Below are positions 29,260 through 58,610 of a DNA stretch of 64,000 nt, in pieces. The stretch is from contig NZ_JALKBC010000002.1 of assembly GCF_023015865.1 (NCBI RefSeq), forward strand, positions 310,001 to 374,000, read 5' to 3'. How positions within the stretch are numbered: the stretch's first letter is position 1; each line of letters begins with the position of its first letter. This DNA comes from Arenibacter sp. F26102. GTDB lineage: Bacteria > Bacteroidota > Bacteroidia > Flavobacteriales > Flavobacteriaceae. The translations under genes were made by a program, and so were the position numbers. Under the pieces are notes generated by a model, which was given only the letters and a program-made list of their open reading frames with translations, ran no database searches and was not told the DNA's origin.

Positions 29260-30825
29260 TTATTTTAAGTCTTGTATAACTTCCGTTAAAGCCTTGTAAA
29301 TGATGGGCCCGGTTTCTGGTCCCAAAGAATTTTCTTCCCCATAGGTGTCCCCTTCATCATTGTAGAGATATGGCTTTCCCGTATCCCATTCACTTTTGGG
29401 TATAATGTACCCTATTTCATCATTGGAAAGTCCTAAATAGAATTTGTACTTGTCGGTAATTAAGTCCTGAAGTGGAGGTATCTCCATGGGCTGGATGTCA
29501 AATTCGCGCCCTTCCGGAGCTTCAATTCCGCCATAAACAATTTCTGGATATATTTCTCCAGGAATGCTTAAAAAGAAGGCAGGGCCTATCCGAATGGCGC
29601 CCACTTCCGTTCTCGATTTAAAATATTCTGGCATACCCATTTTAATCAAACCAATACCACTGGCAATTTTAAAGGTAGTATTGTCCAAAGGGGCCATTAT
29701 GGTTTTTGCCCTTAAAGAAATATTGGAATTGGCTAGAGTGTCCCCTTTTTGTTTTAGGGCAGCTAAGGACATTAGTGCAATTTGATCTCCAAGCGCTTTG
29801 GTTTTTTTAAAAGTGGGTTCAAAATATTCTTCTCCAGTAAAGGGATCTGGAATACCCAGAGAAGGGTGGGGGGCCATAAGGCCACCAATGGCTCCTGAAA
29901 AATAAATGGCGATACCTCCAAGTCCTTCATGTACCAATTCTTTTCCATTGTATACCCCATTTTCCATTGCTTCACGTATATAATGCGGAAAATCGGAACT
30001 GATCAATAGATTTTGGGACCATAGCGTTTCTGGGTGATTGGCCCAATTTATGATAGTCCCCAAGGTAGTATCGTTTTCAGCATCCAAGACCTGCATTAAA
30101 TGTATTCCAGTCGCTTTTACGATTGGTTTTCGGGTGTCTTTGATAAGTTTTCCGTCTTCACCGGATAGATCTTCGGCGAACACCAGTTTTGCCGGGCGTA
30201 AATTATTAACGGCTTCCGTAATGGCAGCAACAGTTTGGGATTTCACATATTCCATCATTTCAGGATTTACTCCAGAATTGAAAATATTTTCTCCCCATAT
30301 GCCTACAAGATCATTGCTCTCGTGGGTATGGGTAGAGGATAATAAGGTGTAATCTATTCCCAGCTCGGCAGGGATACGCTTTCTTATATCGATCACATCG
30401 CCATGTAAAAAACCAATGGCATCCATAGAAATCATAGCGATCCTGCTTTTGCCATCGTCGATGACCATGACACGGGACCACACATCATCATGGACCCCCT
30501 GTGCCGGCTTGGCATTGCTCATTCCGGCTATCCAGTAGGCATCGAATTTTCCATTGTTGTTGTTGTCATTGTAGGTGTCACCTTCATCTTTACTGTATTT
30601 GTTGTTTCCATTAGCATCGTTCCAAGTATCCACTATAGTGGGTGTAATAGGTTTTTTGGCAAATCCGGCCTTTATGGGTTGAGGAGTTTTATTTTCTATT
30701 TTTAGATCTATTGTATAATTTGGATGGCGGTCACGCCAATTGTATATCACTATGGATGTTCCGATCAACAGGAGTAAAATGACCAATATCCCGATTATTT
30801 TTAACCCCTTTTTTAAAGTTTTCAT
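29260..30825 (-). CDS. Neutral/alkaline ceramidase-fold hydrolase, membrane-anchored (paralogue 1)
   Basis: A 521-residue protein with one N-terminal membrane anchor (about 8-28), then a neutral-ceramidase N-terminal domain. Zinc-site motifs are recognisable: STHTHES (His166/168), NWANHPETL, PGEIYPE and NDEIGYIIPKSEW. The segment aligned with the nucleophile motif NxGDxSP reads GAIGGLMAP, so the catalytic Ser appears to be Met. An Asp/Asn-rich insertion (about 69-95, DANGNNKYSKDEGD...) looks like a calcium-binding loop. Last gene of the six-gene operon that begins at 36519. True ceramidase activity is doubtful; a metal-dependent amidase or esterase on another substrate is possible. Confidence 0.7.
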   Translation of the reverse strand: MKTLKKGLKIIGILVILLLLIGTSIVIYNWRDRHPNYTIDLKIENKTPQPIKAGFAKKPITPTIVDTWNDANGNNKYSKDEGDTYNDNNNNGKFDAYWIAGMSNAKPAQGVHDDVWSRVMVIDDGKSRIAMISMDAIGFLHGDVIDIRKRIPAELGIDYTLLSSTHTHESNDLVGIWGENIFNSGVNPEMMEYVKSQTVAAITEAVNNLRPAKLVFAEDLSGEDGKLIKDTRKPIVKATGIHLMQVLDAENDTTLGTIINWANHPETLWSQNLLISSDFPHYIREAMENGVYNGKELVHEGLGGIAIYFSGAIGGLMAPHPSLGIPDPFTGEEYFEPTFKKTKALGDQIALMSLAALKQKGDTLANSNISLRAKTIMAPLDNTTFKIASGIGLIKMGMPEYFKSRTEVGAIRIGPAFFLSIPGEIYPEIVYGGIEAPEGREFDIQPMEIPPLQDLITDKYKFYLGLSNDEIGYIIPKSEWDTGKPYLYNDEGDTYGEENSLGPETGPIIYKALTEVIQDLK

Positions 30826-30836
30826 TGCATGTAGTT

Positions 30837-32237
30837 TTATAGCTTGGTTTGCGTTAGTGCATTAGCCATTTTAAAATTTAGTTCCATTAGGTAATCGCCC
30901 ATACTGGGCCCATACCATCCCATTAAACGGGCTTCGTAAGTATCATAATAGTAATATTTTTGCGGTACTATATAACCCAGATACTGGCCGTTGAAACTAC
31001 TGAGCACGGAATTATATCCCTGCAGTTCCAAGGCGTTTTTTAAATCCAAGCCATACTCCCCGCTAAGTTCGTATGGCAGTGCAAGCCAAACGAGCTTGTT
31101 TAATTTAAGGCCCTGTACATGAACCGGATTCATTTTGGGGATCAGCTTCCTTCCTAAATAGGGAGAAAGTCGTAAACGGTCAGAGATATATAGGAACTGT
31201 AATTTTGGAATTTCAATCTCTGTGGATATCGCCATTAAATCCATATTCCCAGAATGTTCCATTTTGTTCATGGCCACTTGGGCCGAATCGGCAAGGGTTT
31301 CCCCTATGTATTTCGCTTTGTCAAACTTCTTTCCTATACCTTTATTGGAATGACTGCCCACCGTTCCAGCAAAGAACAGAGCAAGGTCAACGCCATTTTT
31401 TTCCAAATGACGTTGAAAGTATCCCGGATAATCTCCGGTGTATTGTTCATTATCAGTACCTATTACAGTAGCGTGGGCGGAAAAAACACCAATACTGGCC
31501 CTTCTGCCGTTTTCCTGAATAAAGGATAAAAGATCTAGTTTATCATTGAGTCGCCCAGATTCTCCAATTATCCTGTTTCGGACCAAATGGGGAACCTTAA
31601 TATAACCCGACGAAAACTGGGCCGGTTGTTTGTCTGCCAAAGCCTTTAAAATAAGATCGGAAAAATTTTGGGCAAGCCATGCAACCACTTCTGGTTGATA
31701 TTCACCTCCAAAACTTTTGCCTACATAGCCAGGCATGCAATTGCCAATACTGGAATGGGTGTGGGTGGCGCCAAAAAAAAGTTGTTTCCTTGTTATTTTT
31801 CCTCTTAAAATTTCGGTGACTTTTGTTACAACATCTTCGGGTATGGCTACGAGATCCGCGTTGATCAGAACGATGGACTCATTGTTGACATCTATGGCGA
31901 TAGCTTTTGCAAAAAGGGAATCGTGAACACCCGTTGCAATCTTACCATCACCATAACCGGCCATTTTAATGGTATTGAATTCGCCTTTTTTCGGGTCCGG
32001 AATTCCACTTACAATTTTAGGGGTAATGTTTATCCTTGAAAATCCAGCAAGTAAGGATCCCTTGGCTTCTGTTTTATTTTTAACTGCCTCTTCTATATTT
32101 TCAATGGTATTTCTGTAATATTGTGTTTCAAAATATGGAGAGGTATCTATAGTGCTGGTCGCTAAAAAGAAAAGTAGAATTAGGAGCAGGATAAGTGCTC
32201 CAAAAATTTTAACCAAGGTCCTTAACCATTTTCCCAT
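30837..32237 (-). CDS. Neutral/alkaline ceramidase-fold hydrolase, membrane-anchored (paralogue 2)
   Basis: A 466-residue protein with an N-terminal membrane segment (about 8-27). Family motifs are GATHTHSSIGN (zinc His pair), SAHATVIG (second zinc His), FFAGTVGSHSNKG at the nucleophile position, LPYELSGEY (zinc Glu) and GQYLGYIVPQKYY (zinc Tyr). Here the Ser of VGSHSN falls where the catalytic serine of NxGDVSP lies, unlike its two paralogues, so this is the copy most likely to use a serine mechanism. It lacks the Asp-rich insertion of paralogue 1. Gaps of 11 and 5 bases to its neighbours indicate one transcript. Confidence 0.7.
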   Translation of the reverse strand: MGKWLRTLVKIFGALILLLILLFFLATSTIDTSPYFETQYYRNTIENIEEAVKNKTEAKGSLLAGFSRINITPKIVSGIPDPKKGEFNTIKMAGYGDGKIATGVHDSLFAKAIAIDVNNESIVLINADLVAIPEDVVTKVTEILRGKITRKQLFFGATHTHSSIGNCMPGYVGKSFGGEYQPEVVAWLAQNFSDLILKALADKQPAQFSSGYIKVPHLVRNRIIGESGRLNDKLDLLSFIQENGRRASIGVFSAHATVIGTDNEQYTGDYPGYFQRHLEKNGVDLALFFAGTVGSHSNKGIGKKFDKAKYIGETLADSAQVAMNKMEHSGNMDLMAISTEIEIPKLQFLYISDRLRLSPYLGRKLIPKMNPVHVQGLKLNKLVWLALPYELSGEYGLDLKNALELQGYNSVLSSFNGQYLGYIVPQKYYYYDTYEARLMGWYGPSMGDYLMELNFKMANALTQTKL

Positions 32238-32242
32238 CGTTG

Positions 32243-33325
32243 TTAGTATTTAAGTTTTTGTGGATCTATAACGATATATTTTACTGTTTTTCGGTTCCAG
32301 GTATAAACAATGTGCACCTTCCCGTCCGGAGCCTGTATCATAGTGGGGTATGAATATTCTTCTCCTTCCTTATCCGTGTTTTCCCTTAACGGTTCCAAGT
32401 CCAACACCCTTTTCCAATTTTTACCGTCATTGGACAAGGCCAAACTTAAAGGCACCCGATCACCCCAATTTTTACCTGTGGGATTGTATACCAATAATTG
32501 TCGTCCGTCCTTTAAGCTTACCCCATCAATGCCAGAATTGGGATTGGGTAATGAAGTGGCTGTCATTTTACTCCAAGTACTGCCATAATCCGTAGACCAA
32601 TTTTCTGTGACTACCTCATTTTCAGTTCTGCTCAATAGCTGTAATTTTCCATTTCCATAATTAAGGATCACGGGTTGAATGGCTCCAAATTCTTTGCCAT
32701 CATTAAGGGCTTGTGTTTTGGACCATGTTTTTCCGTTATCCTTACTAAGTTCGAGATGTATCTTCCAACCTTCCTTATTATCTTCTGTGCTGGATGGCGA
32801 GAGTATTTCACCGCTTGCCAATTGTATAGGTTGATTTTTTATAGGTCCAAGCATGCCATCTGGAAGTTTTATAGGGTTGGACCAGGTTTTTCCATCATCC
32901 TCAGAGGTCATATATAGTCCCCACCACTCAGTAGGACTAGGTCCTACCTTGTAAAATAGAATTAACGGTTGGCCTTTTGGTTTAAAGAGTACTGGGTTCC
33001 AACAAGGATATCTGGTACCATCTTCCTGTACGCCGTTAACAACTTCGATAGGGGTAGACCATGAGCCGCCTGTTTTTCGCGATACCCATATTCCAACATC
33101 GTCGTTCTTTTCTTCCGTCCCACCAAACCAAGAGGAGACAACGGTTCCATTGCTCACTTCAACGGTAGAGGCATGGCATTCTGGCGTAAGTGCATTTTCT
33201 ATTTCGTAAACAAATTCCTGTTCCAAGATAGCTGGATGATCTAATGGAACTACTTCAGGTAATTTATCCATTTTTCCTTTACAAGATAGTATAATCAGGG
33301 AACATAAAATTAATGGCAGTTTCAT
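32243..33325 (-). CDS. BNR/Asp-box exo-sialidase-like lipoprotein
   Basis: A 360-residue six-bladed beta-propeller protein with a short lipoprotein leader (LIILSCKGK). At least four Asp boxes are readable: SEDDGKTW, SKDNGKTW, STDYGSTW and SNDGKNW. An active-site-like SSWFGGTEEKNDDVGIW occurs near the N-terminus. The GH33 sialidase FRIP arginine motif is not evident, so it belongs to the broad sialidase-like (BNR_2) group and may cleave another acidic or deoxy sugar. It sits between two enzyme classes, a ceramidase-fold protein and an alpha/beta hydrolase, in the same operon. Likely periplasmic or surface-exposed. Confidence 0.7.
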   Translation of the reverse strand: MKLPLILCSLIILSCKGKMDKLPEVVPLDHPAILEQEFVYEIENALTPECHASTVEVSNGTVVSSWFGGTEEKNDDVGIWVSRKTGGSWSTPIEVVNGVQEDGTRYPCWNPVLFKPKGQPLILFYKVGPSPTEWWGLYMTSEDDGKTWSNPIKLPDGMLGPIKNQPIQLASGEILSPSSTEDNKEGWKIHLELSKDNGKTWSKTQALNDGKEFGAIQPVILNYGNGKLQLLSRTENEVVTENWSTDYGSTWSKMTATSLPNPNSGIDGVSLKDGRQLLVYNPTGKNWGDRVPLSLALSNDGKNWKRVLDLEPLRENTDKEGEEYSYPTMIQAPDGKVHIVYTWNRKTVKYIVIDPQKLKY

Positions 33326-33345
33326 ATGATTTGTATTTTTGGTTT

Positions 33346-34320
33346 CTATTTATTTGTTAATGAATTCACTAATGGGACATATTTTTCGAAAAAATCATCC
33401 ATATAATACTGGCAATATTCATTTACTTTAACGGCTATGTCCATAGTATGGGGCCATCCTTTTAATTTGTGATAATAGGATGGAACGCCAACTTCCTGTA
33501 ATTTTTTATGCAAACGATCGGATTGGGCCACTGGTACCAGTTCGTCCAAGGTACCGTGGAAAGTAAGTGTTGGAGGAGCATCTTTCGATACTAGGAATAA
33601 TGGTGAGGCCCGTCTGTACAACTCAGGGGCCTCTTCGAAGGTCTTTCCGAACAGGAATTTTACGGAACCCTCATTTTTGGCTTTTTCCGTAGTAAGGTCG
33701 GATGGGCCGTAAATATTTACCAAGGCTTGTACCTTGGGAGAATTCTCGCTCTTGGTTTCGCTTGCACCGGTATTGGTGAAGGCTGTCATCATAGACAAAT
33801 GAGCTCCTGCAGAGCCTCCAATAAGTGCAATTTGTTTATTGTTGATATGGTAATCATTGGCATGTTGCTTTAACCAAATAATGGCGTCTTCCACGTCGTT
33901 CAATTGTGCAGGATATTTGGCGACACCACTTAAACGATATTGAACAGTAGCAGTAACGTAACCTTTTTTGGCATAACTGATTAAATAATGCCAATAATCT
34001 TCTTTTTTACCTTTTTTCCAGGCTCCACCATGTACAAAAATCAATAAGGGGGCATTTTCCTTAATGTCCTTGTAATGGTAGACATCCAATTTTAACGAAA
34101 GTGTATCCGCGGTTTTATACACCACGTCTTTATATTCTTTAATAGATTCTGGAAGGGGATAACTGGTCTCTATGAGTTTTAAGGCACCGGTGGCATAAGC
34201 TATTTTAAGGGTTGTATTGCTAGAATAGCCTTTGGGAGGTTGGGATATATCGTACTGTTTAGCTTTGCACCCAACAATTATTAAGAATATCGATAAAATA
34301 TGTACTATTCTTTTGTCCAT
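33346..34320 (-). CDS. Alpha/beta hydrolase lipoprotein (BD-FAE/acetylesterase-like)
   Basis: A 324-residue exported esterase with lipobox IIVGCKA (about Cys18). The oxyanion motif HGGAWKKGKKEDYW, nucleophile motif IGGSAGAHLSM, acid in TLDELVPVAQS and terminal His in GWPHTMD form a complete hormone-sensitive-lipase/BD-FAE-like catalytic set. It probably removes acyl groups (acetyl or feruloyl type) from a carbohydrate. It lies 11 bases after the MFS gene and 20 bases before the sialidase-like gene, so it is part of the six-gene operon. Confidence 0.8.
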   Translation of the reverse strand: MDKRIVHILSIFLIIVGCKAKQYDISQPPKGYSSNTTLKIAYATGALKLIETSYPLPESIKEYKDVVYKTADTLSLKLDVYHYKDIKENAPLLIFVHGGAWKKGKKEDYWHYLISYAKKGYVTATVQYRLSGVAKYPAQLNDVEDAIIWLKQHANDYHINNKQIALIGGSAGAHLSMMTAFTNTGASETKSENSPKVQALVNIYGPSDLTTEKAKNEGSVKFLFGKTFEEAPELYRRASPLFLVSKDAPPTLTFHGTLDELVPVAQSDRLHKKLQEVGVPSYYHKLKGWPHTMDIAVKVNEYCQYYMDDFFEKYVPLVNSLTNK

Positions 34321-34331
34321 AATTAATTTAC

Positions 34332-35612
34332 CTAAGGTTCCGATATTTTTCCAGAGCCAAAAAGCTCTTTAAGACTTATTGTTTTGTTGTTTACCAGCGG
34401 TTTGGCCCAAAATCCAATACTAAAAATAAAACCTAAAGTCAGGTATAAAAAGATCATACCGCCTTTTAACCCAACTAAGTCACCTATTGCCCCAACAATA
34501 AGTGGTACTATGGCCCCGCCCACTATTCCGGAACAGAGAATGCCAGAGAGGGCTCCGTGGTTATCTTTTACAGAGTTCAATGCCAAGGAGAAAATAATGG
34601 ACCACATAACCGAAGCAAAAAAACCTACTAAGGGAAACGCCACAACGGCAATTTGTGCAGAGCCGAAAAGTGCAGCGGTCAAACTTAAGATGGCCGCCCC
34701 TGAAAATAATTTCAGAACCAATTTGCTGTCCATAAATTTTAAAAGTAGTAGCCCTAAAATACAGCCTACTGTTAATAGACCCCAAAACAAGGAAATGGCG
34801 CCGGCCCCTTCTACCCTTGGGTCCAAACCATGGTATTCGGATAGGAATTGCGACATCCAATTGGCCACACCCTGTTCGGTACCAACATAGGCGAACAAGC
34901 CCATAAAAAATAAGAGCACTTTTTTGTTTTTAAATAACTCCTTGTTCGTGGCCCAAGTACCGGCTTTTTCGTCTTCATTCCTCTCTACCTTGGGTAATTT
35001 AATAGGATATATGAAAATGAGCATGAACAGTGAGATAATGCCAAATATCCAGTACAGGGAAACCCATGGCAAATTTTCTGGCACAATGTTGTGAAACGTA
35101 TTGATTATAAAATTGGAATTGTCCGGACCAGAATAGTTTTCCAGATTGAGTACCAGATATGAGAAAAGGAAAGGACTAATAAAAGAGGCCAGTCCAAATG
35201 CGAGTTGTCCCATTACAGAATTAAAGGCAAAATGTTCTTCACCCCCAGCAACGCGCAGCAATGGATTTATAGCCACTTGTAACATTGCCATTCCCGATCC
35301 TATTAAAAAAAGTGATACCAGGGCTATCGGGAAATTGGGAAACATAGAAAATAGAATAGCACCAAAAAAGGAGACCAAAAATGCAGCCAACATTACCTGT
35401 TTTTCCCCATAACTTTCTACCGCTACACCCGAGGGAATGGAAAACACGCCATAAGCAACAAAAAAAGCAAATGGCAATAAAGCGGCCATCGTTAAACTAA
35501 CCTTGAAATCCGTGATAATATCAGGTATTAATGGCCCTAAAATATTGGTAAGGAAGGAAATGACAAAAAAGATGAATAAAATAAGGACTACAATGAATTG
35601 ATTTTTTCTCAT
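34332..35612 (-). CDS. Sugar MFS transporter, FucP/NagP-like
   Basis: A 426-residue inner-membrane permease with about 12 transmembrane segments. Segments such as FFVAYGVFSIPSGVAVESYGEKQVM, LFLIGSGMAMLQVAINPLLR, FAYVGTEQGVANWMSQFL and GILCSGIVGGAIVPLIVGAIGD match the fucose/glucose/N-acetylglucosamine:H+ symporter branch common in Bacteroidota sugar loci. The substrate cannot be named; its operon mates suggest a sugar or sugar acid released by the hydrolases. Gaps to neighbours are 11 and 16 bases. Confidence 0.85.
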   Translation of the reverse strand: MRKNQFIVVLILFIFFVISFLTNILGPLIPDIITDFKVSLTMAALLPFAFFVAYGVFSIPSGVAVESYGEKQVMLAAFLVSFFGAILFSMFPNFPIALVSLFLIGSGMAMLQVAINPLLRVAGGEEHFAFNSVMGQLAFGLASFISPFLFSYLVLNLENYSGPDNSNFIINTFHNIVPENLPWVSLYWIFGIISLFMLIFIYPIKLPKVERNEDEKAGTWATNKELFKNKKVLLFFMGLFAYVGTEQGVANWMSQFLSEYHGLDPRVEGAGAISLFWGLLTVGCILGLLLLKFMDSKLVLKLFSGAAILSLTAALFGSAQIAVVAFPLVGFFASVMWSIIFSLALNSVKDNHGALSGILCSGIVGGAIVPLIVGAIGDLVGLKGGMIFLYLTLGFIFSIGFWAKPLVNNKTISLKELFGSGKISEP

Positions 35613-35628
35613 CTTATGGGTGCGAAGA

Positions 35629-36519
35629 TTAATTGAGGGTGTCTTTTTTCAAACTTAATTCATCCTTTACACCAAGAGGTTTTCTGATAAAAATAATTAC
35701 GGTGGCCGTGATGAACATTAACAAACCATAAATGGCCGGTACAATGGAGTATTCTGCATTGTTCAGGGCTATTGTTGCCAAGGTTATCGCCAAAGTCCCG
35801 TTTTGGATTCCTGTTTCAATGGAAATACTGATGGCCTGTGGTCTTGTTAGTTTAAACAGGACTGCCATTAAAAACCCTATGGTCATGGTACTTACATTTA
35901 GCAGTATAGCTGGTAGACCTGCCTCACTTAAATAGCTCATAAAAACGTCCTTGACGCTGATTGTTACCCCAATGATTACCAAAATAAAAATTATGGCAGA
36001 GGCTATCTTAACAGGTTTCTCCATTTTGTTGGCAAATGCTTCAAATTTACTTTTTATAAGCATCCCGATTCCCACGGGGATGATCACTATTACCAATAAC
36101 TGTTTTACCATGGTTATGGCATCAACAGTGACGGCCATGCTTTTGTTGGAGAATTCTTCCAAGGCAAATTGCACAATTAAGGGAATGGTTAAAATGGACA
36201 AAATACTCGACACGGCAGTCAGGGAAACTGATAAGGCCAAATCTCCCTTGGCCAAATAAGACAGCATGTTGGATGTTGGTCCTCCTGGACAGGCTGCCAA
36301 TAGCATAATGCCTATGGCTGTTGTTGGGGACAAGCTTAGGGAAATAGCAATAAAATAACCAATTAAAGGCAGTAACAACATCTGACAGAGGAGACCTATG
36401 ATCATGGCCTTGGGATAGCTTACCACTCTCTTAAAATCGGATACGGTCAAGGATAGGCCCATTCCGAACATTATAATGATCAAGGAAACGGCAAGGATTA
36501 TTCCAGAGGTAGAATTCAT
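35629..36519 (-). CDS. Bile acid:Na+ symporter (BASS/ASBT) family transporter
   Basis: A 296-residue inner-membrane transporter with about 9-10 helices. The start is the ATG at 36519; the longer frame begins with TTG two codons earlier. Family segments are MFGMGLSLTVSDFKRV, LLAACPGGPTSNMLSYLAKGD (the conserved crossover region), and ISIETGIQNGTLAITLA near the C-terminus. Bacterial members carry organic acids such as pantoate, pyruvate-like acids or sulfonates with Na+. It is the first gene of the six-gene operon, which suggests that uptake of an acid is part of the pathway. Confidence 0.85.
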   Translation of the reverse strand: MNSTSGIILAVSLIIIMFGMGLSLTVSDFKRVVSYPKAMIIGLLCQMLLLPLIGYFIAISLSLSPTTAIGIMLLAACPGGPTSNMLSYLAKGDLALSVSLTAVSSILSILTIPLIVQFALEEFSNKSMAVTVDAITMVKQLLVIVIIPVGIGMLIKSKFEAFANKMEKPVKIASAIIFILVIIGVTISVKDVFMSYLSEAGLPAILLNVSTMTIGFLMAVLFKLTRPQAISISIETGIQNGTLAITLATIALNNAEYSIVPAIYGLLMFITATVIIFIRKPLGVKDELSLKKDTLN

Positions 36520-37073
36520 GATCAATAGGTTTTATTGAAAATCATTATCATTTATGCAAAATTGGGTTACACACAAATAAAACTTTTTAAAAGTTATTTT
36601 CCCTATTAAATTTTATTTGATTTACATTATATTTTAGCAAAAAAGTGATTATATGATTACATTTTTCTTAAAAGTGTTAGAATATTTGAAATTTGAAGCA
36701 CCTTTTTAGCTTGTTGTCCTAAAAAGACAGGAAAGGATACACTGTTAGTTCCACCTTTGCATTAATATAGTGTAGTTATAGTGCCATAAATATTAATCCT
36801 GTAATGGTCTTGCTTTTATGTCATGGACTGGGGTAGAGGTAAAAGTCATGTGGCTAAGCCTTAATGCCTAGGTGTAGTTGGAGGTGTTCATATGGGTTAT
36901 TTCTCTTTTACCCATTTATTGAGTTTTGCTTTCTAGACCTTACATATGCCACGGGTATATCCAAGTTAATTTATTATTAACCTATTAGTCCTATAGATTT
37001 TATTTTGTAGTTTTGCGCTTGGTTATTAGGGCCCCAAGAAAGGCTTGAAGTAGAATTTTAAACAACTATCAAA
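36520..37073. other. Intergenic region between divergent transporter and FadL genes
   Basis: About 550 bases without a convincing gene, AT-rich at both ends with a more mixed middle (36770-36960). It should hold the promoter of the minus-strand operon (not identified) and of the FadL gene (see 37008). A small hairpin, ATGGGT (36892-36897) with ACCCAT (36910-36915), is followed by T-rich DNA, so a short RNA is possible but not shown. Confidence 0.5.
37008..37015 (+). promoter_or_regulatory. Candidate -7 box upstream of the FadL-like gene
   Basis: TAGTTTTG matches the flavobacterial -7 consensus TAnnTTTG, 58 bases before the ATG at 37074. A TTAG at 36985-36988 lies about where the TTG element is expected but is not an exact match. 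Confidence 0.45.
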
Positions 37074-38462: not shown

Positions 38463-38499
38463 AGATCGCATTCTTGGGAATTATTGCGAATTCTTGGTT

Positions 38500-38528
38500 G
38501 TCCACTATTGTGTGTAACGATAGTGGAC
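38500..38528. terminator. Hairpin between convergent FadL and deacetylase genes
   Basis: GTCCACTAT (38500-38508) pairs perfectly with ATAGTGGAC (38520-38528) across an 11-base loop. There is no T-run on either side, so termination strength is uncertain, but the position between convergent genes fits a bidirectional terminator. Confidence 0.5.
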
Positions 38529-39615: not shown

Positions 39616-39641
39616 TTTATTATTTTTTTTGATGTATGCGT

Positions 39642-43337: not shown

Positions 43338-43395
43338 TATTTAATTTATCAAATCGAGGGTTAATATATAATGCATATTTAATAATATATCTGAA

Positions 43396-47951: not shown

Positions 47952-47974
47952 TAAAAATTTAAACAGAAATTGAG

Positions 47975-49633: not shown

Positions 49634-50016
49634 TTTGTTATTTGAATTAGTTTAGCAACTGTGTAAAAGGAGGCATTCCGTAAGGGCTGCCTCTTTTTAT
49701 TCTAGGAGGGTAAATACCCCGAGACTTGTCTCGTTAGTAAATGGCTAAAGTTTGAAAACGTGTTCCTTTAAAATGCTCCGTGGGCTTTCCCCGGAGAAAT
49801 TTATTCGACAGACCCGTATTTTAAAAAAGCCGAAGGTTAATTGCAATGTGAAAGTTAAACCAATACCGTCTTTTTTGGCTGGGTTTGCGCTAAACAACCT
49901 CTACCCTTTGGTAGGTTCCTTATAGGGACCAGGACTTGCTCTTGGGCTTAGCACCAGTTATTAATAATTTTTTTCTAATGTCGGATTATTTGTTCCGAAC
50001 CATAAATTTTAAAATC
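49634..50016. other. Intergenic region with terminator and repeat-like hairpins
   Basis: About 380 bases without a gene. It starts with the susD terminator (49665-49698). Several inverted repeats follow: CGAGAC/GTCTCG (49720-49733), CTCCG-GGG/CCC-CGGAG (49776-49796) and an imperfect AACC-TACC/GGTA-GGTT (49896-49917). These GC-richer modules resemble dispersed intergenic repeats rather than promoters. Confidence 0.6.
49665..49698 (+). terminator. Intrinsic terminator after susD
   Basis: AAAAGGAGGCA (49665-49675) pairs with TGCCTCTTTTT (49688-49698) across a 12-base loop and ends in a T-run. It is a classical terminator 32 bases after the SusD stop. Confidence 0.85.
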
Positions 50017-51138: not shown

Positions 51139-51152
51139 TCTTGGATAAAGTC

Positions 51153-52424
51153 ATGGAAACAAAAAAAATAGGAATACCAATATTGATCGTTGCGATGGCA
51201 CTCGCCACAGCCTGGGCTATACGTGGTCAGTTTGGACACGAACAAGGCGCTGCCTGGGCAGGGGCAATTGGTGGCCTTGCCTTAGTACTTGTTTCGGGGC
51301 GAAAGGATTGGTATAACAAAATGATGTTAATTGCTTTTGCATCGGCAGTGGGTTGGGGAGCAGGCGGTATGATCAGTTATGGAGTGGTAGTTGGTTATGG
51401 TTTTGCAGACAACTTTATTAACGCCTATTACGGACTTGGAATGCTCTTTGTTATTGGCGGACTTTTTGGGTTATTGGGAGGTGGGCTAGTAGGTTTAACT
51501 TTGGATTCCACAGAAGGTAAAAGGGTTAAGTGGGGGCAGTTGCTTTCCCTGATGATCGCTGGCGGACTTGTAGGTTATTATTTTTTGGTGGAGCAGATCG
51601 GCTTCAAAATGACACCTCCGCGATCAGAGGCTTGGGCCCTGTGTTTTGGCGCCGGGCTGGCCATGTTGTGGTATATGGCCAAGGAAAATAGAAATTCGGC
51701 CATTAGAGTGGCCTTATTCTCTATGTTGGGTGGAGGTATTGGTTTTAGCTTTGGTAATTTTTTACAGGTACTGGGAAATACATGGGAAATACCGTTTAAT
51801 ATGTGGAACGTTATGGAATACAGTATTGGATTTTTCGGTGGATCTGGAATGGCTTATGGCGTATTTAGTTCCAAATGGCCCAAAGAAATTCCTAGACCTA
51901 AAAAATGGGAAAATTGGTCGGCATTGTTGATTGTGGTACTCTTTATTCCATTAATCGTTTACAGGGAATCATTGACTTATGGCCATATTGCTAGACGTTT
52001 GGAGAGTTTGCCCAATATAGAGTCCATTGCTTCTACAAGTACCTTAATGGTGTTATTAGCGTTGCTTGCAATGTTGGTTATCATCTTTTGGAAATTCAAA
52101 AAAGAAGAATTCACGCAAAAGGATGTTTTGGTTACGTTTTTTACCATGCTTATTGCATATGCCTTTATGAGTTATGCCGTGACAGGAATTTTTGGGGGAG
52201 AAATGCACCTTAACCATCATCTTTATGTGATGAACATAATATTTATTTTCGCTTTGCTCAGATTCAGGAGTTTGCAATTTTCATTTGGAGAAATTGATAA
52301 GATAGACCTTAAAAAATGGCTTGTTTATTTGATCGTTGTACTTTTGGCAATCGCCATTTTGGCATTGATTGCTATAAATGTACATGGTGATCTGGGTGAC
52401 AGGGATAGATTTCCCATGAATTAA
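51153..52424 (+). CDS. Polytopic membrane protein of unknown function (about 13 helices)
   Basis: I do not recognise this 423-residue protein as a defined transporter family. The ATG at 51153 is preferred to the TTG at 51141. Hydrophobicity by eye gives about 13 transmembrane segments. A charged, probably functional motif RGQFGHEQGAAWAG follows the first segment, and Gly-rich helices (FGLLGGGLVGL, GGGIGFSFGN, GGSGMAYGVF) suggest tight packing or a transport path. A HLNHHLYV stretch precedes the last two helices. It sits 14 bases after the phosphatase and 17 bases before a second membrane protein, so it is probably co-transcribed with both. A transporter or membrane-bound transferase for a product of the locus are both possible. 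Confidence 0.65.
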   Translation: METKKIGIPILIVAMALATAWAIRGQFGHEQGAAWAGAIGGLALVLVSGRKDWYNKMMLIAFASAVGWGAGGMISYGVVVGYGFADNFINAYYGLGMLFVIGGLFGLLGGGLVGLTLDSTEGKRVKWGQLLSLMIAGGLVGYYFLVEQIGFKMTPPRSEAWALCFGAGLAMLWYMAKENRNSAIRVALFSMLGGGIGFSFGNFLQVLGNTWEIPFNMWNVMEYSIGFFGGSGMAYGVFSSKWPKEIPRPKKWENWSALLIVVLFIPLIVYRESLTYGHIARRLESLPNIESIASTSTLMVLLALLAMLVIIFWKFKKEEFTQKDVLVTFFTMLIAYAFMSYAVTGIFGGEMHLNHHLYVMNIIFIFALLRFRSLQFSFGEIDKIDLKKWLVYLIVVLLAIAILALIAINVHGDLGDRDRFPMN

Positions 52425-52441
52425 ATTGAGATTTGGTTTTT

Positions 52442-53107
52442 ATGATTAAGAGTGAACAAAGAAAATACATAAAGATAATATGGACCATTTTTGGTATTTC
52501 CATGGGTTATGCGGTCTTAAGGTATAATGTGGTGGGTACGGTTGCATGGAAAGATTTACCAATATTTATATTGAACAAGGGAGTGTCATTGGCAGCAATC
52601 GTATTGCTTGCCTTTAGTTTTTCGATCAGGCCCCTAACCAATTTAGGAATGCCTTACTTAAATTTAGGATTGGAAAGCAGAAAGGTATTAGGTATTTCGG
52701 GCCTGCTTTTAACCATATTTCATGTTCTCCTTAGTTTTTTGATTTTCAATCCCCAATATTATCCAAAGTTTTTTGCAGGAGATGATAGTTTGTCCATAAT
52801 AGGGAATTTTAGTTTGCTCTCCGGAATGGCCAGTTTTATGATATTGGGGATTTACCACTGGTGTTTTAATAACCGTTCCAGGGGCAAGGAGATGCTTATA
52901 GAGATTATCACCTCAAAAAAATTCTTATTAGGGTTACTATTTCTATTGGGGATACATCTTTTTTTTATGGGTTATTCCACTTGGTCTACACCTGCTAAAT
53001 GGCAAGGAGGCTTGCCACCTATAAGTTTGATCTCCTTTGTGGTAGTTCTCTTCGGATTTGTTGTAAATGTATTGGGCAGGGCTTCTGTTAGGAAAGGAGT
53101 TAATTGA
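52442..53107 (+). CDS. Ferric-reductase-like membrane protein (candidate haem-binding)
   Basis: A 221-residue protein with about six transmembrane helices, starting at the ATG at 52442. The helical arrangement and His residues, ESRKVLGISGLLLTIFHVLLSF (about 80-101), GIYHWCF (about 138-144) and GIHLFFMGYSTW (about 173-184), resemble the ferric-reductase/MsrQ-like transmembrane domain that binds haem. No flavin or NAD domain is present, so a partner would be needed. It is the third gene after the phosphatase and the 13-helix protein. The assignment is by resemblance only. Confidence 0.5.
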   Translation: MIKSEQRKYIKIIWTIFGISMGYAVLRYNVVGTVAWKDLPIFILNKGVSLAAIVLLAFSFSIRPLTNLGMPYLNLGLESRKVLGISGLLLTIFHVLLSFLIFNPQYYPKFFAGDDSLSIIGNFSLLSGMASFMILGIYHWCFNNRSRGKEMLIEIITSKKFLLGLLFLLGIHLFFMGYSTWSTPAKWQGGLPPISLISFVVVLFGFVVNVLGRASVRKGVN

Positions 53108-53225
53108 TTATTTTGGCGAATCATTAATAAATGATAAAATAAATTTGTGCCCGCCATTGTATGGTTTGGCACGCATGGGAATAGATATAAACCCCTAATT
53201 AAACTTAAAGGAGTTCATTATTAAA

Positions 53226-54074
53226 TTACCTAAATGTTTTTCTGTAATCCGACGGTGTTTTGCCCATAATATGCTTAAAGTAGTGGTTAAAATTAGCTAG
53301 ATTGTTATACCCGCTTTCAAAGCAAATCTGTGTTATCTGCTTATCGGTTTCTGCCAGTAATTTTGCGGCAATACCCACCCTAACGCTTTTTACGTACTCC
53401 ATAAAGGTGAGATTGGTTTTCTTCTTAAAATATCTGCAAAATGAACTGGGTGCCATATTTAGAACAGAAGCGGCCTCTTCCAGTTTTACACCTTCCTGAA
53501 TATTTTGAAAGACATATTCGTAGACCTTATTTATTTTATCCAGATTTTTGGAGAAAACGGCTGAGCTATTATTTGGATTGGATAGATTTTCCCTTTCATC
53601 TATTTGCAGCAGAAAATTAAATATTTTAAGCATTTCAATATAGTATTCCAATCCTTGTAATTGGGTCATTTTCTCTAGGCTGTGTCTAATGTGGCTATCA
53701 TTTTCCAGCTTAAAACGCAGTCCGGTACTCGATTGTTTTAACAAATCTACCACCTGTTCCAATTCTGGCATCCTAAAAAAATCGGAGTTTATAATGTCCT
53801 CGGAAAAATGTGTAACTATACAAAAAGGGTCATTGTCCCTTTCAAAATCCAAGGCTTCCCAGCAGTGGGGAAGATTAGGACCTAATAGAACCAGGTCACC
53901 TTTTTCAAATCCAGAGATGTTGTCGCCAACAATTCTTCTGCCCGATCCCGCGGTGATAAAATTTAATTCAAAATTTTTGTGGGAATGTATTTTCGCATTT
54001 GATGCCAAAGGTAATTTTCTTGATATAAATGAATGTTTGTTTGGTACAAATATTTTTTCAAAGATAAATTCCAT
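53226..54074 (-). CDS. AraC family transcriptional regulator with cupin-type sensor domain
   Basis: A 282-residue regulator. The ATG at 54074 is used; the longer frame starts with TTG. The N-terminal cupin (about 15-95) shows HSHKNFELNFITAGSG and GDLVLLGPNLPHCWEA. The C-terminal AraC domain (about 185-282) has two helix-turn-helix motifs, including LEEAASVLNMAPSSFCRYFKK and ITQICFESGYNNLANFNHYFK with the family ending GKTPSDYRK. It is divergent from the aldolase gene and sits in the middle of the locus, so it is a good candidate for the local sensor-regulator. Confidence 0.9.
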   Translation of the reverse strand: MEFIFEKIFVPNKHSFISRKLPLASNAKIHSHKNFELNFITAGSGRRIVGDNISGFEKGDLVLLGPNLPHCWEALDFERDNDPFCIVTHFSEDIINSDFFRMPELEQVVDLLKQSSTGLRFKLENDSHIRHSLEKMTQLQGLEYYIEMLKIFNFLLQIDERENLSNPNNSSAVFSKNLDKINKVYEYVFQNIQEGVKLEEAASVLNMAPSSFCRYFKKKTNLTFMEYVKSVRVGIAAKLLAETDKQITQICFESGYNNLANFNHYFKHIMGKTPSDYRKTFR

Positions 54075-54374
54075 AAGTTGGTATATTGACAATATTGGAC
54101 TAATATAATTAAATTATTCAGAAATAAGGTTAAAATATAATGCAATTAAAACAATATTGTAGTGGCGGGGGATATTAAATTGGATTTAATTTGTTAGAAC
54201 AACAATTCATGTCTCATAATATTGGAATCAGATGGTCCAGTGGTCAAACTATAGGATTAATTGCTTGCAAAATAGATTCATGAAAACCTAAAAAACCAAC
54301 CACTATGAATACAGGAACTACGATAGTTTGTCAGTCGGATAGGTATTACCATTATTTAATCCATTAAATATAAA
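54075..54374. other. AT-rich intergenic region between AraC regulator and aldolase genes
   Basis: Three hundred AT-rich bases between divergent genes. It should contain promoters for both, but I see no exact TAnnTTTG box on either strand and no strong inverted repeat. No gene or RNA is evident. Confidence 0.5.
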
Positions 54375-55301
54375 ATGATGAAATTACCTGTAAAAGGAAT
54401 AATACCTCCTATGATTACTCCCTTACTAGAGAATAAGGAACTGGATTTGTCCGGACTAAATAAATTGGTAAACCACCTTGTAGATGGTGGTGTTCACGGA
54501 ATATTTATTTTGGGGACTACAGGGGAGGGGCCTAGTTTAAGTTATGAGGTTAGGAAACAACTTATATCGGAAACCTGTAGAATTGTCAATAAAAAGGTTC
54601 CAGTTTTGGTAGGGATTACGGATACGTCTTTTGATGGTACAATGGAAATCGCCAAGCACGCCAAAGAAGTAGGGGCAGATGCCTTGGTTGTAGCACCACC
54701 ATACTATTTTCCAATTTCTCAAGAAGAAATGGGCGATTACCTTGAAAGTTTATTGCCTGAATTGCCATTGCCTTTTATGTTATATAACATGCCTAGCTGT
54801 ACCAAGCTTCATTTATCCATTGAAGTTGTAAGAAGGGCAAAGGAGTTAGGGGCAATTGGTATTAAGGATAGTTCTGGAGATCTTACTTATTTGTATATGT
54901 TGATCGAAGAATTTAAAGCTGATCCACTATTTTCGGTAATTGCTGGAACCGAATTATTTTTACCGGAAACAATTATGAATGGTGGACATGGTGCGGTAGC
55001 CGGTGGAGCCAATTTTTTCCCGAAATTGTTTGTGGATTTGTACAATGCAGCGGAGGATAGAGATTTGGACAAAATAAGGTCTTTACGTGAACAAGTGCTA
55101 AAGATTCATAAAACAATATATGAGGTTGGGGAATATTCTTCCAGGCATATCAAAGGAACCAAGGCGGCTTTGTTGGCCATGAAAATTTGTCAAGATCATA
55201 GCGCTGAGCCACTCCAGAGATTTACAGAAGCACAACGAAGTCTAATCGAAGAATATATATCTCAATTCAATTATAAAAATGAATATAATTCTATTCATTG
55301 A
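54375..55301 (+). CDS. DapA/NanA-superfamily class I aldolase (dihydrodipicolinate synthase family)
   Basis: A 308-residue cytoplasmic Schiff-base aldolase. The motifs are complete: GTTGEGPSLS (47-56, pyruvate carboxylate binding), LYNMPSCTK (Tyr137) and GIKDSSGD with the Schiff-base Lys164. Family members include N-acetylneuraminate lyase, 2-keto-3-deoxy sugar acid aldolases and DapA. It is catabolic rather than lysine-biosynthetic by context, since it sits between an AraC regulator and glycosidase genes and no dap genes are near. It would split a 2-keto-3-deoxy sugar acid, such as a sialic acid, into pyruvate plus an aldehyde or amino sugar. The true substrate is open. Confidence 0.82.
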   Translation: MMKLPVKGIIPPMITPLLENKELDLSGLNKLVNHLVDGGVHGIFILGTTGEGPSLSYEVRKQLISETCRIVNKKVPVLVGITDTSFDGTMEIAKHAKEVGADALVVAPPYYFPISQEEMGDYLESLLPELPLPFMLYNMPSCTKLHLSIEVVRRAKELGAIGIKDSSGDLTYLYMLIEEFKADPLFSVIAGTELFLPETIMNGGHGAVAGGANFFPKLFVDLYNAAEDRDLDKIRSLREQVLKIHKTIYEVGEYSSRHIKGTKAALLAMKICQDHSAEPLQRFTEAQRSLIEEYISQFNYKNEYNSIH

Positions 55302-55404
55302 AAGCGGTACTCGGGAATATTGACCATGCTTTCAGGAACAAGTTTTTGTTATGATATGGAAAAGTGGACTATATTGAAGCCTGTTGGTAATTGATATTAA
55401 TAAA

Positions 55405-56838
55405 ATGTTGAAAAAGTCGTTTGGCGCAGTTCCGTTATTCATTATTGCTGTTCTGGCACTTTTTTTTCATTTGGATATACTTATTATCGATGCGCTTACT
55501 TTGGAATCCTTACCAAGTTATGGTATCCACATTCAGATTTGGCGAATTCTTTTTGAACCTATTTTAGGATTATTACTATATTTCAATCGCTCCATTTACC
55601 CCTTACAGGAATTGCCTATAACTTTATTGTGGATAATGGTTTTTTATATAGGCCTGAGTCTAATTAAAGTTTTTAAAGTTCCTGTTGGTGCCATTAGGAG
55701 GCAAAGAGTGCTAAGATTTTTGGGAAACCTACCCTTGATTATCGGTGTTTGCTTTTCTGTTTTTATAGTTATTCTTTTCCTGCCGCTACCAAATAATACT
55801 ATTGTCAATAATACTTCGGATGAGATATTGGTTACAACCCATGCCCATACGGAGTTTAGTCATGACGGATTAATTTCGCAGGACAAAATGTGGCAATGGC
55901 ACAAAAGAAATGGGTTCGATGCCTTTTTTATAACCGATCATGCCAATCATAAAAAAACAATGGACTTCTCCTCCAGGCAAAAGGAAGGCCAATTTCCTTT
56001 GGAGCCATTGATAATGGTGGGTCAAGAACATTCGGGTTCCAATCATATGAGTTTATTGGGACTGAACGGGAAATTTGAAATCAAGGGGAAATCGGACTCC
56101 CTAATAGTGGATTTGGTGCATAAGTATGGAGGTGCTGTGATAATTAATCATTGGTTTGATGGGAAGGGGAATGACAAGGAGTTTTATAAGGACCTTGGGG
56201 CTGACGGCTTTGAAATTGAAAATGTCGGCAAGGAATTATATTATGATCGAACCAAATTTATGGATCTAAAAAAGTTCTGTGAAGAAAACAAGCTCCTTAT
56301 GATTGGTGGACTGGATTTTCATGGTTACGGGAGGGCCTGTGGTTTATGGAATGCGTTTCAAATTCCCAATTGGCATCAAATGAATCCGGATGACAAGGAA
56401 AAATCTATTTTGGAAATATTAAGAAATAGGGATCAAAGTAGGGTAAAGGTACTCATGTACAAAGATCGACCTTTCTATAGTGAAGATAATTTGTTGTTCC
56501 AACCCTTTGTTACCTTGGTTAATTATTTTAGGACGCTTAATTTCTATCAGGTTTTATCCTGGGCCATTTGGTTGGTTTTGTTCCAATTGTTATGGAATTA
56601 TAGAAGGCAACATTTTATTCCAATGCACAAAAGAATGGCCTTGACTGGATTGGTCAGTGCCTTGTTTTTAGTAGCCATGGGCTTATATTATATGTTTCGG
56701 GGCAATGCGGTTAAGGGCTATAGTAAAGTGTTTGCCGAATACAGTTCATTGCTGTTGACCATTGGCTCTGTCTTTATGATCTATTCACTTTTGACCATAT
56801 ATTTTAGATTCTTCAGAAAATTAAAAATTAAAACTTGA
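55405..56838 (+). CDS. Membrane-embedded PHP-domain phosphoesterase-like protein
   Basis: A 477-residue protein with an unusual layout: about four N-terminal helices (to about residue 130), a PHP-type metal-dependent domain (about 135-370), then three C-terminal helices. PHP motifs are THAHTEFSHDG (about 145-155), ITDHANH (about 176-182), GQEHSG, NHWFDG and GGLDFHG, giving the His/Asp set needed for a trinuclear metal site. The start is the ATG at 55405, inside a longer TTG frame. It may hydrolyse a phosphate ester outside the cytoplasm. Its stop overlaps the GH31 start (TTGA), so the two are translationally coupled. Confidence 0.72.
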   Translation: MLKKSFGAVPLFIIAVLALFFHLDILIIDALTLESLPSYGIHIQIWRILFEPILGLLLYFNRSIYPLQELPITLLWIMVFYIGLSLIKVFKVPVGAIRRQRVLRFLGNLPLIIGVCFSVFIVILFLPLPNNTIVNNTSDEILVTTHAHTEFSHDGLISQDKMWQWHKRNGFDAFFITDHANHKKTMDFSSRQKEGQFPLEPLIMVGQEHSGSNHMSLLGLNGKFEIKGKSDSLIVDLVHKYGGAVIINHWFDGKGNDKEFYKDLGADGFEIENVGKELYYDRTKFMDLKKFCEENKLLMIGGLDFHGYGRACGLWNAFQIPNWHQMNPDDKEKSILEILRNRDQSRVKVLMYKDRPFYSEDNLLFQPFVTLVNYFRTLNFYQVLSWAIWLVLFQLLWNYRRQHFIPMHKRMALTGLVSALFLVAMGLYYMFRGNAVKGYSKVFAEYSSLLLTIGSVFMIYSLLTIYFRFFRKLKIKT

Positions 56839-58610
56839 AAAGGAAAGTACTGAAAATAGGTGTTTTAGGATTTCTTCTTTTAGGTTTGGTCTCCTATTTT
56901 TATTGGGTTTTACCTGTGTGGGGAATACCTTTCAACGGGCAGCGTCATGGAAATCCACCTCTGACCCCAGCATGGGCTTTGGAATGTTGGCTTTGGGAAG
57001 ACGATGTAAATACTTCAGATTATGTGGATGAGCTATTAAGGGGGTATAAGGAAAACGATATCCCAGTGAGAACCATTATTTTGGATAGTCCGTGGTCTGT
57101 GCGTTACAACGACTTTGAAATAGACACGATCCTTTATGAAAAACCCAATCAATGGTTTAAAAAGCTTCAGGACAATAATTATAGGGTGGTCTTATGGATG
57201 ACCTCTATGGTAAATAGTTTTAGTAAAGACACCCAAATTAAAGATTCCAAGGATTGGTATGGCGGGGCTATGGATAATGGCTTCCTGGTCAAATCCAAGA
57301 ACCCCAATAAATGGTGGAAGGGTGAAGGCGGTTTTATAGATTATACCAATGCAGATGCCATGCACTGGTGGCGGGGATTGCAACAGAATGTTTTTGATTT
57401 GGGTATTGATGGATGGAAGCTGGATGGCACTGCAACCTTATTCTGGAGCCAATTGGGTCCAATACCCATATTCTACAAGCGCACATCTAAAGGGTTTATG
57501 ACCACTAGAACCTATATGGACCATTATTACAGGGATGAATACCGGCATGGGCTTACCCAAAACCCTGAGTTCGTTACCCTGACCAGATCTATAGACCGTG
57601 GGTTTCATCCTGAAGGATTTTCACCAATTGACGCCTCTCCCGTAAACTGGGTAGGTGATCAAAAGCACGAATGGGTAACGGATCAAATGATATTGGAAAG
57701 TGGGGACGAAAAAGTAGATATAGCGTTGGAAGGAATTCAGGGTTATGAGTCGGCCATAAAAAGCATACTTAAAAGCGCCGAGCTGGGATATAATATTGTG
57801 GGGTCCGATGTGGCCGGATTTTCTGGAAAAACAATTCCGCCAAGACTTTATATACGTTGGACGCAATTCTCCACCTTTTGTGGTCTGTTCATGAATGGTG
57901 GTCATGGCGAAAGGCGACTTTGGAAAAGAACGGAAGAGGAACTGCAGGTGATACGAAAGTTCTCTTGGTTGCATACGGAATTGGTGCCCTATATGTACCA
58001 TTATGTTATTACTGCCCATGATGGGGGCAAAAGATTGCAGACACCCTTAAAACGGGGAAAATATCACTATATGTTCGGGGAAGATTTTTTGGTTGCTCCA
58101 ATATATAAGGATTCGAAAAGAAGAAACATTAGGTTGCCTAAGGGCAAGTGGAGGTATTTTTTTAATGATAAAGATCTTCATGAAGGAGGGACGGATATTG
58201 AACGGGAATTTTCAATGGATGAATTTCCTGTTTATATAAAGGAGGGTGCCATAGTCCCTATGGATGTTAAGCGTGACTATACTGGTTTGGGTGACTTGGA
58301 TTCAGAAGGGTTTACCACCATTTTGGTATATCCCAAAGGCGATAATAGTTTTGTATTTTATCATACGGATACTGTAGGGGAAACCAAGATTTCGTATTCA
58401 ACTTTAGGTAAAAAATTGAAACTTTCACTGGATGGAACTAAAATATCCCATATCTTAAGAGTCCATTCCAATAGTGTTCCGGAATCCATCACTTTGGATG
58501 GACGTCCCATTGAAAAAGGCGTTTTCTGGAATTATGACGACTTAAACCATAAGCTTATTATCAAAAGTGGAGTGGAATATGGGAAAGGGGAATATGAAAT
58601 CATTTTCTGA
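56835..58610 (+). CDS. Membrane-anchored GH31 family glycoside hydrolase
   Basis: A 591-residue GH31 enzyme with an N-terminal membrane anchor (about 7-27). The TIM barrel has the nucleophile motif GWKLDGTATLFW (Asp197), a likely acid/base in NWVGDQKHEW (Asp275) and the downstream GSDVAGFSG. A C-terminal beta-sandwich follows (PKGKWRYFFNDKD onwards). The N-terminal beta domain is shorter than in classic alpha-glucosidases. GH31 members cleave alpha-glucosides, alpha-xylosides, sulfoquinovosides or alpha-galactosides; I cannot choose between them. The start is a TTG overlapping the stop of the PHP gene. The anchor suggests a periplasmic role at the inner membrane. Confidence 0.85.
   Translation: MKRKVLKIGVLGFLLLGLVSYFYWVLPVWGIPFNGQRHGNPPLTPAWALECWLWEDDVNTSDYVDELLRGYKENDIPVRTIILDSPWSVRYNDFEIDTILYEKPNQWFKKLQDNNYRVVLWMTSMVNSFSKDTQIKDSKDWYGGAMDNGFLVKSKNPNKWWKGEGGFIDYTNADAMHWWRGLQQNVFDLGIDGWKLDGTATLFWSQLGPIPIFYKRTSKGFMTTRTYMDHYYRDEYRHGLTQNPEFVTLTRSIDRGFHPEGFSPIDASPVNWVGDQKHEWVTDQMILESGDEKVDIALEGIQGYESAIKSILKSAELGYNIVGSDVAGFSGKTIPPRLYIRWTQFSTFCGLFMNGGHGERRLWKRTEEELQVIRKFSWLHTELVPYMYHYVITAHDGGKRLQTPLKRGKYHYMFGEDFLVAPIYKDSKRRNIRLPKGKWRYFFNDKDLHEGGTDIEREFSMDEFPVYIKEGAIVPMDVKRDYTGLGDLDSEGFTTILVYPKGDNSFVFYHTDTVGETKISYSTLGKKLKLSLDGTKISHILRVHSNSVPESITLDGRPIEKGVFWNYDDLNHKLIIKSGVEYGKGEYEIIF

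Follow-up and report, generated by a model that had tools for sequence, protein, structure and literature searches.

The polysaccharide utilization loci (PULs) of Bacteroidota bring together an adjacent SusC/SusD pair, an adjoining lipoprotein, a regulator, permeases, a glycoside hydrolase, esterase-like proteins, and a deacetylase, arranged in co-directional operons. Here, we studied a locus with all of these features, at positions 29,260 to 58,610 of a 64,000-nucleotide stretch of Arenibacter sp. F26102 (contig NZ_JALKBC010000002.1, positions 310,001 to 374,000; "the window" below), which also encodes three ceramidase-fold paralogues that we call CER1, CER2, and CER3. Unlike known PULs, it has no universal glycoside hydrolase (GH31 occurs in 11 of 14 mapped Arenibacter loci), and the enzymes that stay constant in it are of the ceramidase-fold, PF10142, YdjC, BNR_2, and DHDPS types. 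An earlier note, made from the sequence by a model, knew of no described PUL with three ceramidase-fold paralogues; among the matches listed for the open-licence PMC literature we likewise found none, nor any description of proteins of the ceramidase family PF04734 in such a SusC/SusD locus. We consider it probable that this is a single PUL-type locus, conserved here and there among Bacteroidota and probably under joint control of an AraC-family protein, that imports an acylated glycoconjugate and dismantles it to a 2-keto-3-deoxy sugar acid, with the CER proteins acting as metal-dependent deacylases.

Layout and conservation of the gene block

All genes that the earlier note had listed are open reading frames of the window at the positions given below and match the families given (Pfam, unless another basis is named). 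Two minus-strand operons face a plus-strand one. By position, the first comprises CER1 (29260..30825; Pfam, structural model, and alignment), which carries an acidic DxNxNG insert; CER2 (30837..32237; Pfam and profile comparison); a BNR_2 Asp-box propeller (BNR, 32243..33325); an esterase-like alpha/beta hydrolase of BD-FAE type (BDFAE, 33346..34320); an accessory FucP/GluP-like MFS permease (34332..35612), for which the best NCBIfam models, gluP and fucP, score below their cut-offs; and a BASS/SBF permease (SBF, 35629..36525). The second comprises a YdjC/ChbG-type carbohydrate deacetylase (38587..39645), an AXE1-like alpha/beta hydrolase (ABH, 39642..40559), a PhoPQ_related (PF10142) alpha/beta hydrolase (PqaA, 40546..41931), and CER3 (41961..43253; Pfam below cut-off, and profile comparison). 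Opposite these, on the plus strand, stand a PKD-domain lipoprotein (43555..44502), which is a candidate surface glycan-binding protein, a SusC-type TonB-dependent transporter (44547..47951), and a SusD-like_2 lipoprotein (47975..49633), followed on the same strand by a metallophosphoesterase (MPE, 49936..51138), a variable member, and the membrane proteins MEM1 (51141..52424; multi-helix) and MEM2 (52433..53107; no Pfam match). An AraC-family regulator with a cupin-type domain (53226..54092, minus strand) then lies beside plus-strand genes for a DHDPS-superfamily aldolase or dehydratase (54375..55301), a membrane protein with a PHP (phosphoesterase) domain (55384..56838), and a GH31 alpha-glycosidase (56835..58610). 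Gaps within operons range from -14 to 44 bp, with the exception of the 82 bp between DHDPS and PHP. By eye, the N-termini of BNR, BDFAE, YdjC, PqaA, PKD, and SusD are lipoprotein-like, and those of CER1, CER2, ABH, and GH31 resemble membrane anchors. The adjacent SusC and SusD genes (44547-49633) have counterparts in all 14 mapped Arenibacter loci, and the carbohydrate-active enzymes and regulator expected of a PUL are present as GH31, YdjC, and AraC, with GH92 in a relative.

PF04734 was detected in 20 of 100 genomes, the host genome (5.44 Mb, 84 contigs) included, among them 15 of 17 from the same genus. We mapped 40 kb around the locus in 14 of these 15 (G001 was excluded, its pair lying at a contig edge). 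Present in every one were CER1, CER2, BNR, SBF, YdjC, PqaA, PKD, SusC, SusD, MEM1, AraC, DHDPS, and PHP, with CER3 and ABH in 13 of the 14, GH31, BDFAE, and MPE in 11, MFS in eight (a 142-aa remnant in G007 was left uncounted), and FadL in four. A. hampyeongensis has a CER1 with 97% identity to the one in the window. A 788-aa open reading frame separates BNR from BDFAE in eight of the 14 loci (one member tested, a GH92 protein). Five of the 14 (one being L054:5178-10380) also have an extra SusC/SusD pair and a protein of ~1135 aa before AraC; the one such protein tested, from G002, is of FG-GAP/ASPIC-UnbV type.

To follow the locus across genera we scanned genome contigs with CER1 and grouped the resulting 60 loci into classes of our own: 14 from Arenibacter, 11 from elsewhere with CER1 at 72-84% identity and full flanks, five of the latter kind with short flanks, two from Algoriphagus, 18 with CER1 at 48-71%, and 10 at ≤35%. 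The 11 full-flank loci are presumably all from Flavobacteriaceae, save one labelled merely as a Bacteroidetes bacterium. CER1 is the right-hand end of the locus: each of the genes beyond it (DnaQ, MBL-rhodanese, SulP, KDH, and MauG) is shared by 13 or all 14 Arenibacter loci, and none was found in the 11 others. Window genes were counted as neighbours within 10 kb of CER1 at 45% identity and 30% coverage, so that distant genes are cut off by the flank. On this count the 11 loci retain BNR, YdjC, and PqaA in 11, CER2 in 10, ABH and PKD in nine, CER3 in eight, SBF in seven, SusC in six, BDFAE and MPE in three, and MEM1 and MEM2 in one, while FadL, MFS, SusD, AraC, DHDPS, PHP, and GH31 were not found within that distance. 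Because the block persists while its right-hand surroundings change, we regard it as one conserved locus. The SusC/SusD side was inspected directly in Ulvibacterium, Kriegella, Maribacter, Pareuzebyella, and Aurantibacter. All five have CER3, PKD, SusC, SusD, MEM1, AraC, and an AraC-facing DHDPS followed by an SSF permease; a second DHDPS adjoining SusD, PHP, and an oxidoreductase (GFO) were each seen in four, and GH31 in three. Recurrence in these genera marks the SSF permease, the oxidoreductase, and the second DHDPS as members of the locus there.

The locus is rare, yet it extends past the order. Among 395 Bacteroidia genomes, the host's included, six have a full-length CER1 (>600 bits), five a CER3, and three both. 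Rearranged versions include a Bacteroidales bin (L145), in which BDFAE-YdjC-GH31-ABH-PqaA-CER3 faces SusC-SusD and a PKD match, weak at 31%, lies past them; a Draconibacterium bin (L146), in which YdjC-GH31-CER3-CER2-PqaA-BNR-SSF-DHDPS faces AraC; Algoriphagus (L143, L144), with SusC-SusD-CER2, GH31, GDPD, and CER3; and L137 and L141, with SusC-SusD-CER3-PqaA. The earlier note had proposed that the three ceramidase-fold paralogues belong to one PUL-type locus, an idea to be abandoned if the minus-strand operons and the SusC/SusD set never occurred together in related loci. They do co-occur, across genera and beyond the family, and the single-locus idea therefore stands.

A different reading of the same neighbourhoods is that two independent modules, CER1 (often beside PHP) and CER3-PqaA-SusCD, merely adjoin one another. 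Separate contigs carry CER1 and CER3 in Algoriphagus, Membranihabitans, and G366, and in Kriegella aquimaris ~350 kb lies between the two, which implies that CER1 also works away from CER3; in addition, CER1 comes after a PHP-domain protein in the Bacteroidota bins L105, L109, L112, L119, and L120. However, the modules are joined in eight of the 11 non-Arenibacter loci despite their differing right-hand flank, and again in L108 (Prolixibacteraceae) and L103 (a Lewinella bin), and CER1 and CER3 distances correlate at 0.82 over nine taxa, a figure that is uncontrolled for species relatedness. We regard two separate modules as improbable. Near the PHP-CER1 pairs, an SIS protein and a PfkB-HAD fusion are encoded in L109, L119, and L120 (one member per cluster tested), with ROK also in L109 and L119; L112 has SIS only, and L105 has neither SIS nor PfkB-HAD.

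Several observations besides the unlinked genes count against a single conserved locus. The 14 Arenibacter loci were chosen for having CER1 and CER2, two of the 17 same-genus genomes gave no PF04734 match at all, GH31 is absent from three of the 14 loci, and CER3 and ABH are absent from one. The 18 loci with CER1 at 48-71% hold few of the other genes within 10 kb (BDFAE, PqaA, and SusD in three; CER3, PKD, and SusC in two; CER2, YdjC, ABH, MEM1, AraC, and DHDPS in one each; BNR in none), and the 10 with CER1 at ≤35%, eight of them Acidobacteriota bins by title, hold no other locus gene. The support as a whole comes from conserved gene content, the modelled fold of CER1, a missing motif, and a shared DNA element. 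On the supporting side, 15 of 26 genomes selected for CER1 have a strong CER3 match (E 1e-30 or better); the other 11 are nine metagenome bins (by title) and the isolates Confluentibacter sediminis and Sediminicola luteus.

Around the locus, a GDPD gene (58651..59526, minus strand) is a possible outer member, 30-43% homologues of it lying beside distant locus versions. On the CER1 side, a di-haem peroxidase (MauG-like) and a 3-keto-disaccharide hydrolase at 21991-24066 adjoin CER1 only in Arenibacter among the 60 loci, and a NamZ-type exo-beta-N-acetylmuramidase at 17935-19182 lies outside the locus.

Ceramidase fold and the lipid reading

The three CER proteins are related to one another by profile comparison (CER1-CER3, E 4e-45; CER1-CER2, E 2e-30), and PF04734 is the sole Pfam match in each, at 33.4 bits for CER1, 51.0 for CER2, and 26.7 for CER3, the last falling below the cut-off of 32.1. 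These matches cover just 114 to 218 of the 509 positions of the family; partial PF04734 matches by short proteins are described as common in excerpts of PMC4443539. The best of five AlphaFold2 models of CER1 (pLDDT 90.8, pTM 0.92) gave no PDB match below E 0.001 other than neutral ceramidases, to which identity is 14-15%, with E 1.1e-21 to 2zws, so that the overall fold is that of a neutral ceramidase for CER1 by model and for CER2 and CER3 by their profile homology to it. A CER1 profile aligned with the human and Pseudomonas ceramidases over ~200 residues (E 4.5e-11 and 1.1e-9); in this alignment the invariant HTH (166-168) and the histidine of NHPE (264) fall on ceramidase histidines that we take to be zinc-binding. 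Over 31 aligned sequences, the HTH, NHPE, and PGE positions are invariant and GY nearly so.

The neutral and alkaline ceramidases (PF04734; 2zws, 4wgk) thus resemble these proteins in the modelled fold and in the invariant histidine and glutamate and near-invariant tyrosine positions. They differ in that the CER proteins are shorter, only 14-15% identical to them, and without either a C-terminal ceramidase domain match or a GDVSPN-type motif. Human neutral ceramidase carries the motif NLGDVSPN, with pocket residues His196, Arg257, Tyr579, and Tyr591, in the excerpted text of PMC6952831. The pattern G[DN][VLI]SPN, which covers that human motif and variants of it, occurs in none of 60 aligned CER sequences. 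Against the NCBIfam neutral-ceramidase equivalog NF041649, which has a cut-off of 1200 bits, CER1 and CER2 score 22.4 bits and CER3 gives no match. With the motif absent and the aligned histidines kept, the fold and probably a metal site are retained and the signature of ceramidases is missing. We infer that the CER proteins are metal-dependent amide or ester hydrolases of the ceramidase superfamily that act on a glycoconjugate and are not ceramidases, although their metal binding is a prediction from the alignment.

These results bear directly on the suggestion that the locus targets a glycolipid, sphingolipid, or phospho-glycoconjugate, in which the CER proteins would cleave N-acyl lipid amides, FadL would import the fatty acid, and phosphoesterases would remove phosphate. 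The ceramidase fold predicted for CER1 is consistent with this, as are the genes for FadL, GDPD, PHP, and a metallophosphoesterase that the window locus contains or adjoins. However, the missing amidase motif, the scores far below the equivalog cut-off, and the lack of a C-terminal ceramidase domain all point away from ceramidases, and the 14-15% identity of the CER1 model stands against 33.5% to the Pseudomonas enzyme for a putative flavobacterial ceramidase (excerpts of PMC5561996). The FadL/Toluene_X outer-membrane protein (37074..38462, plus strand) is an accessory gene, probably outside the core, with four occurrences in 14 Arenibacter loci and none in 11 others. On the amidase motif, NCBIfam cut-off, and FadL results the sphingolipid reading was demoted, and the lipid part of the substrate proposed in the earlier note is weakened with it. 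Its phosphate part fared less uniformly: PHP is present in 14 of 14 Arenibacter loci, an HAD protein lies in the CER1 flank of eight of the 11 others (one member tested), metallophosphoesterase homologues of 62-65% identity are found past CER1 in three of those 11, and GDPD is nearby in some, while the metallophosphoesterase itself is variable (11 of 14 Arenibacter loci). Since phosphatase-type genes recur, we weighted the lipid or phosphate reading slightly upward, lowering the two-module reading equally; the lipid or phosphate reading is unlikely all the same, though a shade less so than the other alternatives. A ceramidase that excerpts of PMC9430895 place in inositol clusters is SrfJ, which is likened there to human glycosylceramidases.

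The host genome encodes five PF04734 proteins, three of them at this locus; the other two lie at C13:4319-13717, where they are accompanied by an AraC-type regulator, a GDSL hydrolase, a protein resembling GH20 enzymes, and one resembling glucuronoyl/acetyl-xylan esterases. A different Arenibacter, G004, has genes of PF04734 type at L071:8389-16794 together with those for a beta-helix protein and a DUF7133-HEAT-cytochrome c protein.

Partner enzymes and the sialic acid reading

The Nan clusters of Bacteroidota resemble the locus in having an Asp-box propeller, a NanA-superfamily protein, and an SSF or MFS permease. It could accordingly be read as a sialoglycan locus, in which BNR would be a sialidase, DHDPS an N-acetylneuraminate lyase, SSF or MFS the carrier of sialic acid, and GFO a NanOx-like oxidoreductase. 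In its favour, each of 13 BNR proteins has three or four Asp-boxes, as GH33-type sialidases do, and BNR matches NanC and NanB in the PDB (E 3e-7 to 4e-6); BNR-SSF-DHDPS-AraC are contiguous in the Draconibacterium bin L146, and in the five other genera SSF stands beside DHDPS in all and GFO is present in four. However, GH33-type sialidases carry an (F/Y)RIP motif, and a RIP motif was found in none of the 13 BNR proteins. The DHDPS protein scored 87.9 bits against the NCBIfam nanA cut-off of 382, which leaves the name NanA unsupported, and 174 against 206.15 for dapA. An arginine after YNxPS marks 4-hydroxy-tetrahydrodipicolinate synthase, and the locus protein reads YNMPSC instead. Its closest PDB match is 4xky, titled dihydrodipicolinate synthase and presumably from Bacteroides thetaiotaomicron, followed by YagE, titled probable 2-keto-3-deoxy-galactonate aldolase. 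Neither the NanE nor the AGE/NanE-II family had a match in the host genome, whereas the sialic acid routes described in excerpts of PMC10017367 need an epimerase of one kind or the other, and in this the locus differs from Nan clusters as it does in the missing RIP motif. On the RIP, NanE, and AGE tests we rejected sialic acid as the main explanation and rate its chances as slim. Across the host genome, 13 BNR_2 and eight DHDPS-family matches were counted, including a DHDPS pair on contig C84 near 71-73 kb. The sialidase and NanA hints of the earlier note are thus weakened along with its lipid part, its phosphate part has evidence on both sides, and its single PUL-type locus holds.

Among the remaining partners, YdjC retains HADD and further metal-type residues in eight of eight sequences. 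GH31 is 56-70% identical across seven aligned relatives and keeps KLDG and GSD, which we take to be the nucleophile and the acid. PqaA has no significant solved relative in the PDB (best E 0.041). MEM1 has FGHE and MTPPRSE stretches that are invariant in seven of seven sequences; it matched no Pfam or NCBIfam family, its model (pLDDT 74) gave no PDB match below E 0.001, and we consider it a candidate transporter.

Shared DNA element and proposed route

When the two divergent intergenic regions of the window were compared, a near-identical element was found in both, on the plus strand, at 43357..43375 between CER3 and PKD and at 54126..54144 between AraC and DHDPS. An 18-letter pattern derived from the two sites has two perfect matches genome-wide, which are those sites. 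We also searched for a core, GGTTAA[ATG]AT, in three regulatory regions from each of seven genomes of other genera. It was found between CER3 and PKD in five of the seven, between AraC and DHDPS in six, and before the unit after SusD in five, against shuffled means of 0.20, 0.10, and 0.24 (maximum 2) and reversed counts of 0, 0, and 1 in the same order, with the qualification that the core was derived from the window after the best matches in the seven genomes were known, so that the test is not fully independent. All 16 core-bearing regions have the hit in the same orientation, the distance from core to region end is 86 bp in five of the six AraC-DHDPS regions and 87-89 bp in four of the five of the post-SusD kind, and 12 of 17 hits in five 20-kb stretches fall inside the regulatory regions.

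Other tests of the element argue the other way. With up to two mismatches the 18-letter pattern has 21 matches genome-wide and its backwards control 19; the nine-letter core has seven hits in the window, just two of them at the two sites; and in a pairwise 19-mer test within single genomes, none of 200 shuffles attained the score of the window and one of 200 that of G002, in both cases owing to another AT-rich match, while the number of shuffles out of 200 was nine in G003, 21 in Pareuzebyella, and at least 59 in all other comparisons, so that most are non-significant. With a looser pattern of three mismatches, six matches lie in the window against 2.96 expected, and 6 of 100 shuffles reach six, which is not a clear enrichment. 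Nevertheless, recurrence of the element in three regulatory regions suggests that the three transcription units are co-regulated through it, and the simplest reading is that it would be the site of the AraC protein of the locus. We judge the locus to be conserved and probably co-regulated.

In the PUL-type function that we favour, the PKD lipoprotein and SusC/SusD would bind and import an acylated glycoconjugate. Anchored or exported CER1-3, the three alpha/beta hydrolases, YdjC, BNR, and GH31 would then strip acyl groups and sugars from it in the periplasm or at the surface; SBF and MFS (SSF in other genera), perhaps with MEM1, would move the products inward; and the DHDPS-family enzyme would split or dehydrate a 2-keto-3-deoxy sugar acid.

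What such a locus might mean more broadly we put forward tentatively, as a possibility at somewhat less than even chances: CER1-3 may be glycan-active deacylases (or glycosidases) of a new class, by which a new type of PUL is defined, the target may be a widespread and unrecognised marine glycoconjugate in which a 2-keto-3-deoxy or uronic acid sugar bears groups in amide or ester linkage, and MEM1 may found a new family of carbohydrate transporters. Short proteins with partial PF04734 matches are named after ceramidase, and a SusC/SusD locus with three CER proteins offers a route to their real activity, as well as to the substrate of a dedicated machinery that is maintained in several marine lineages of Bacteroidota.

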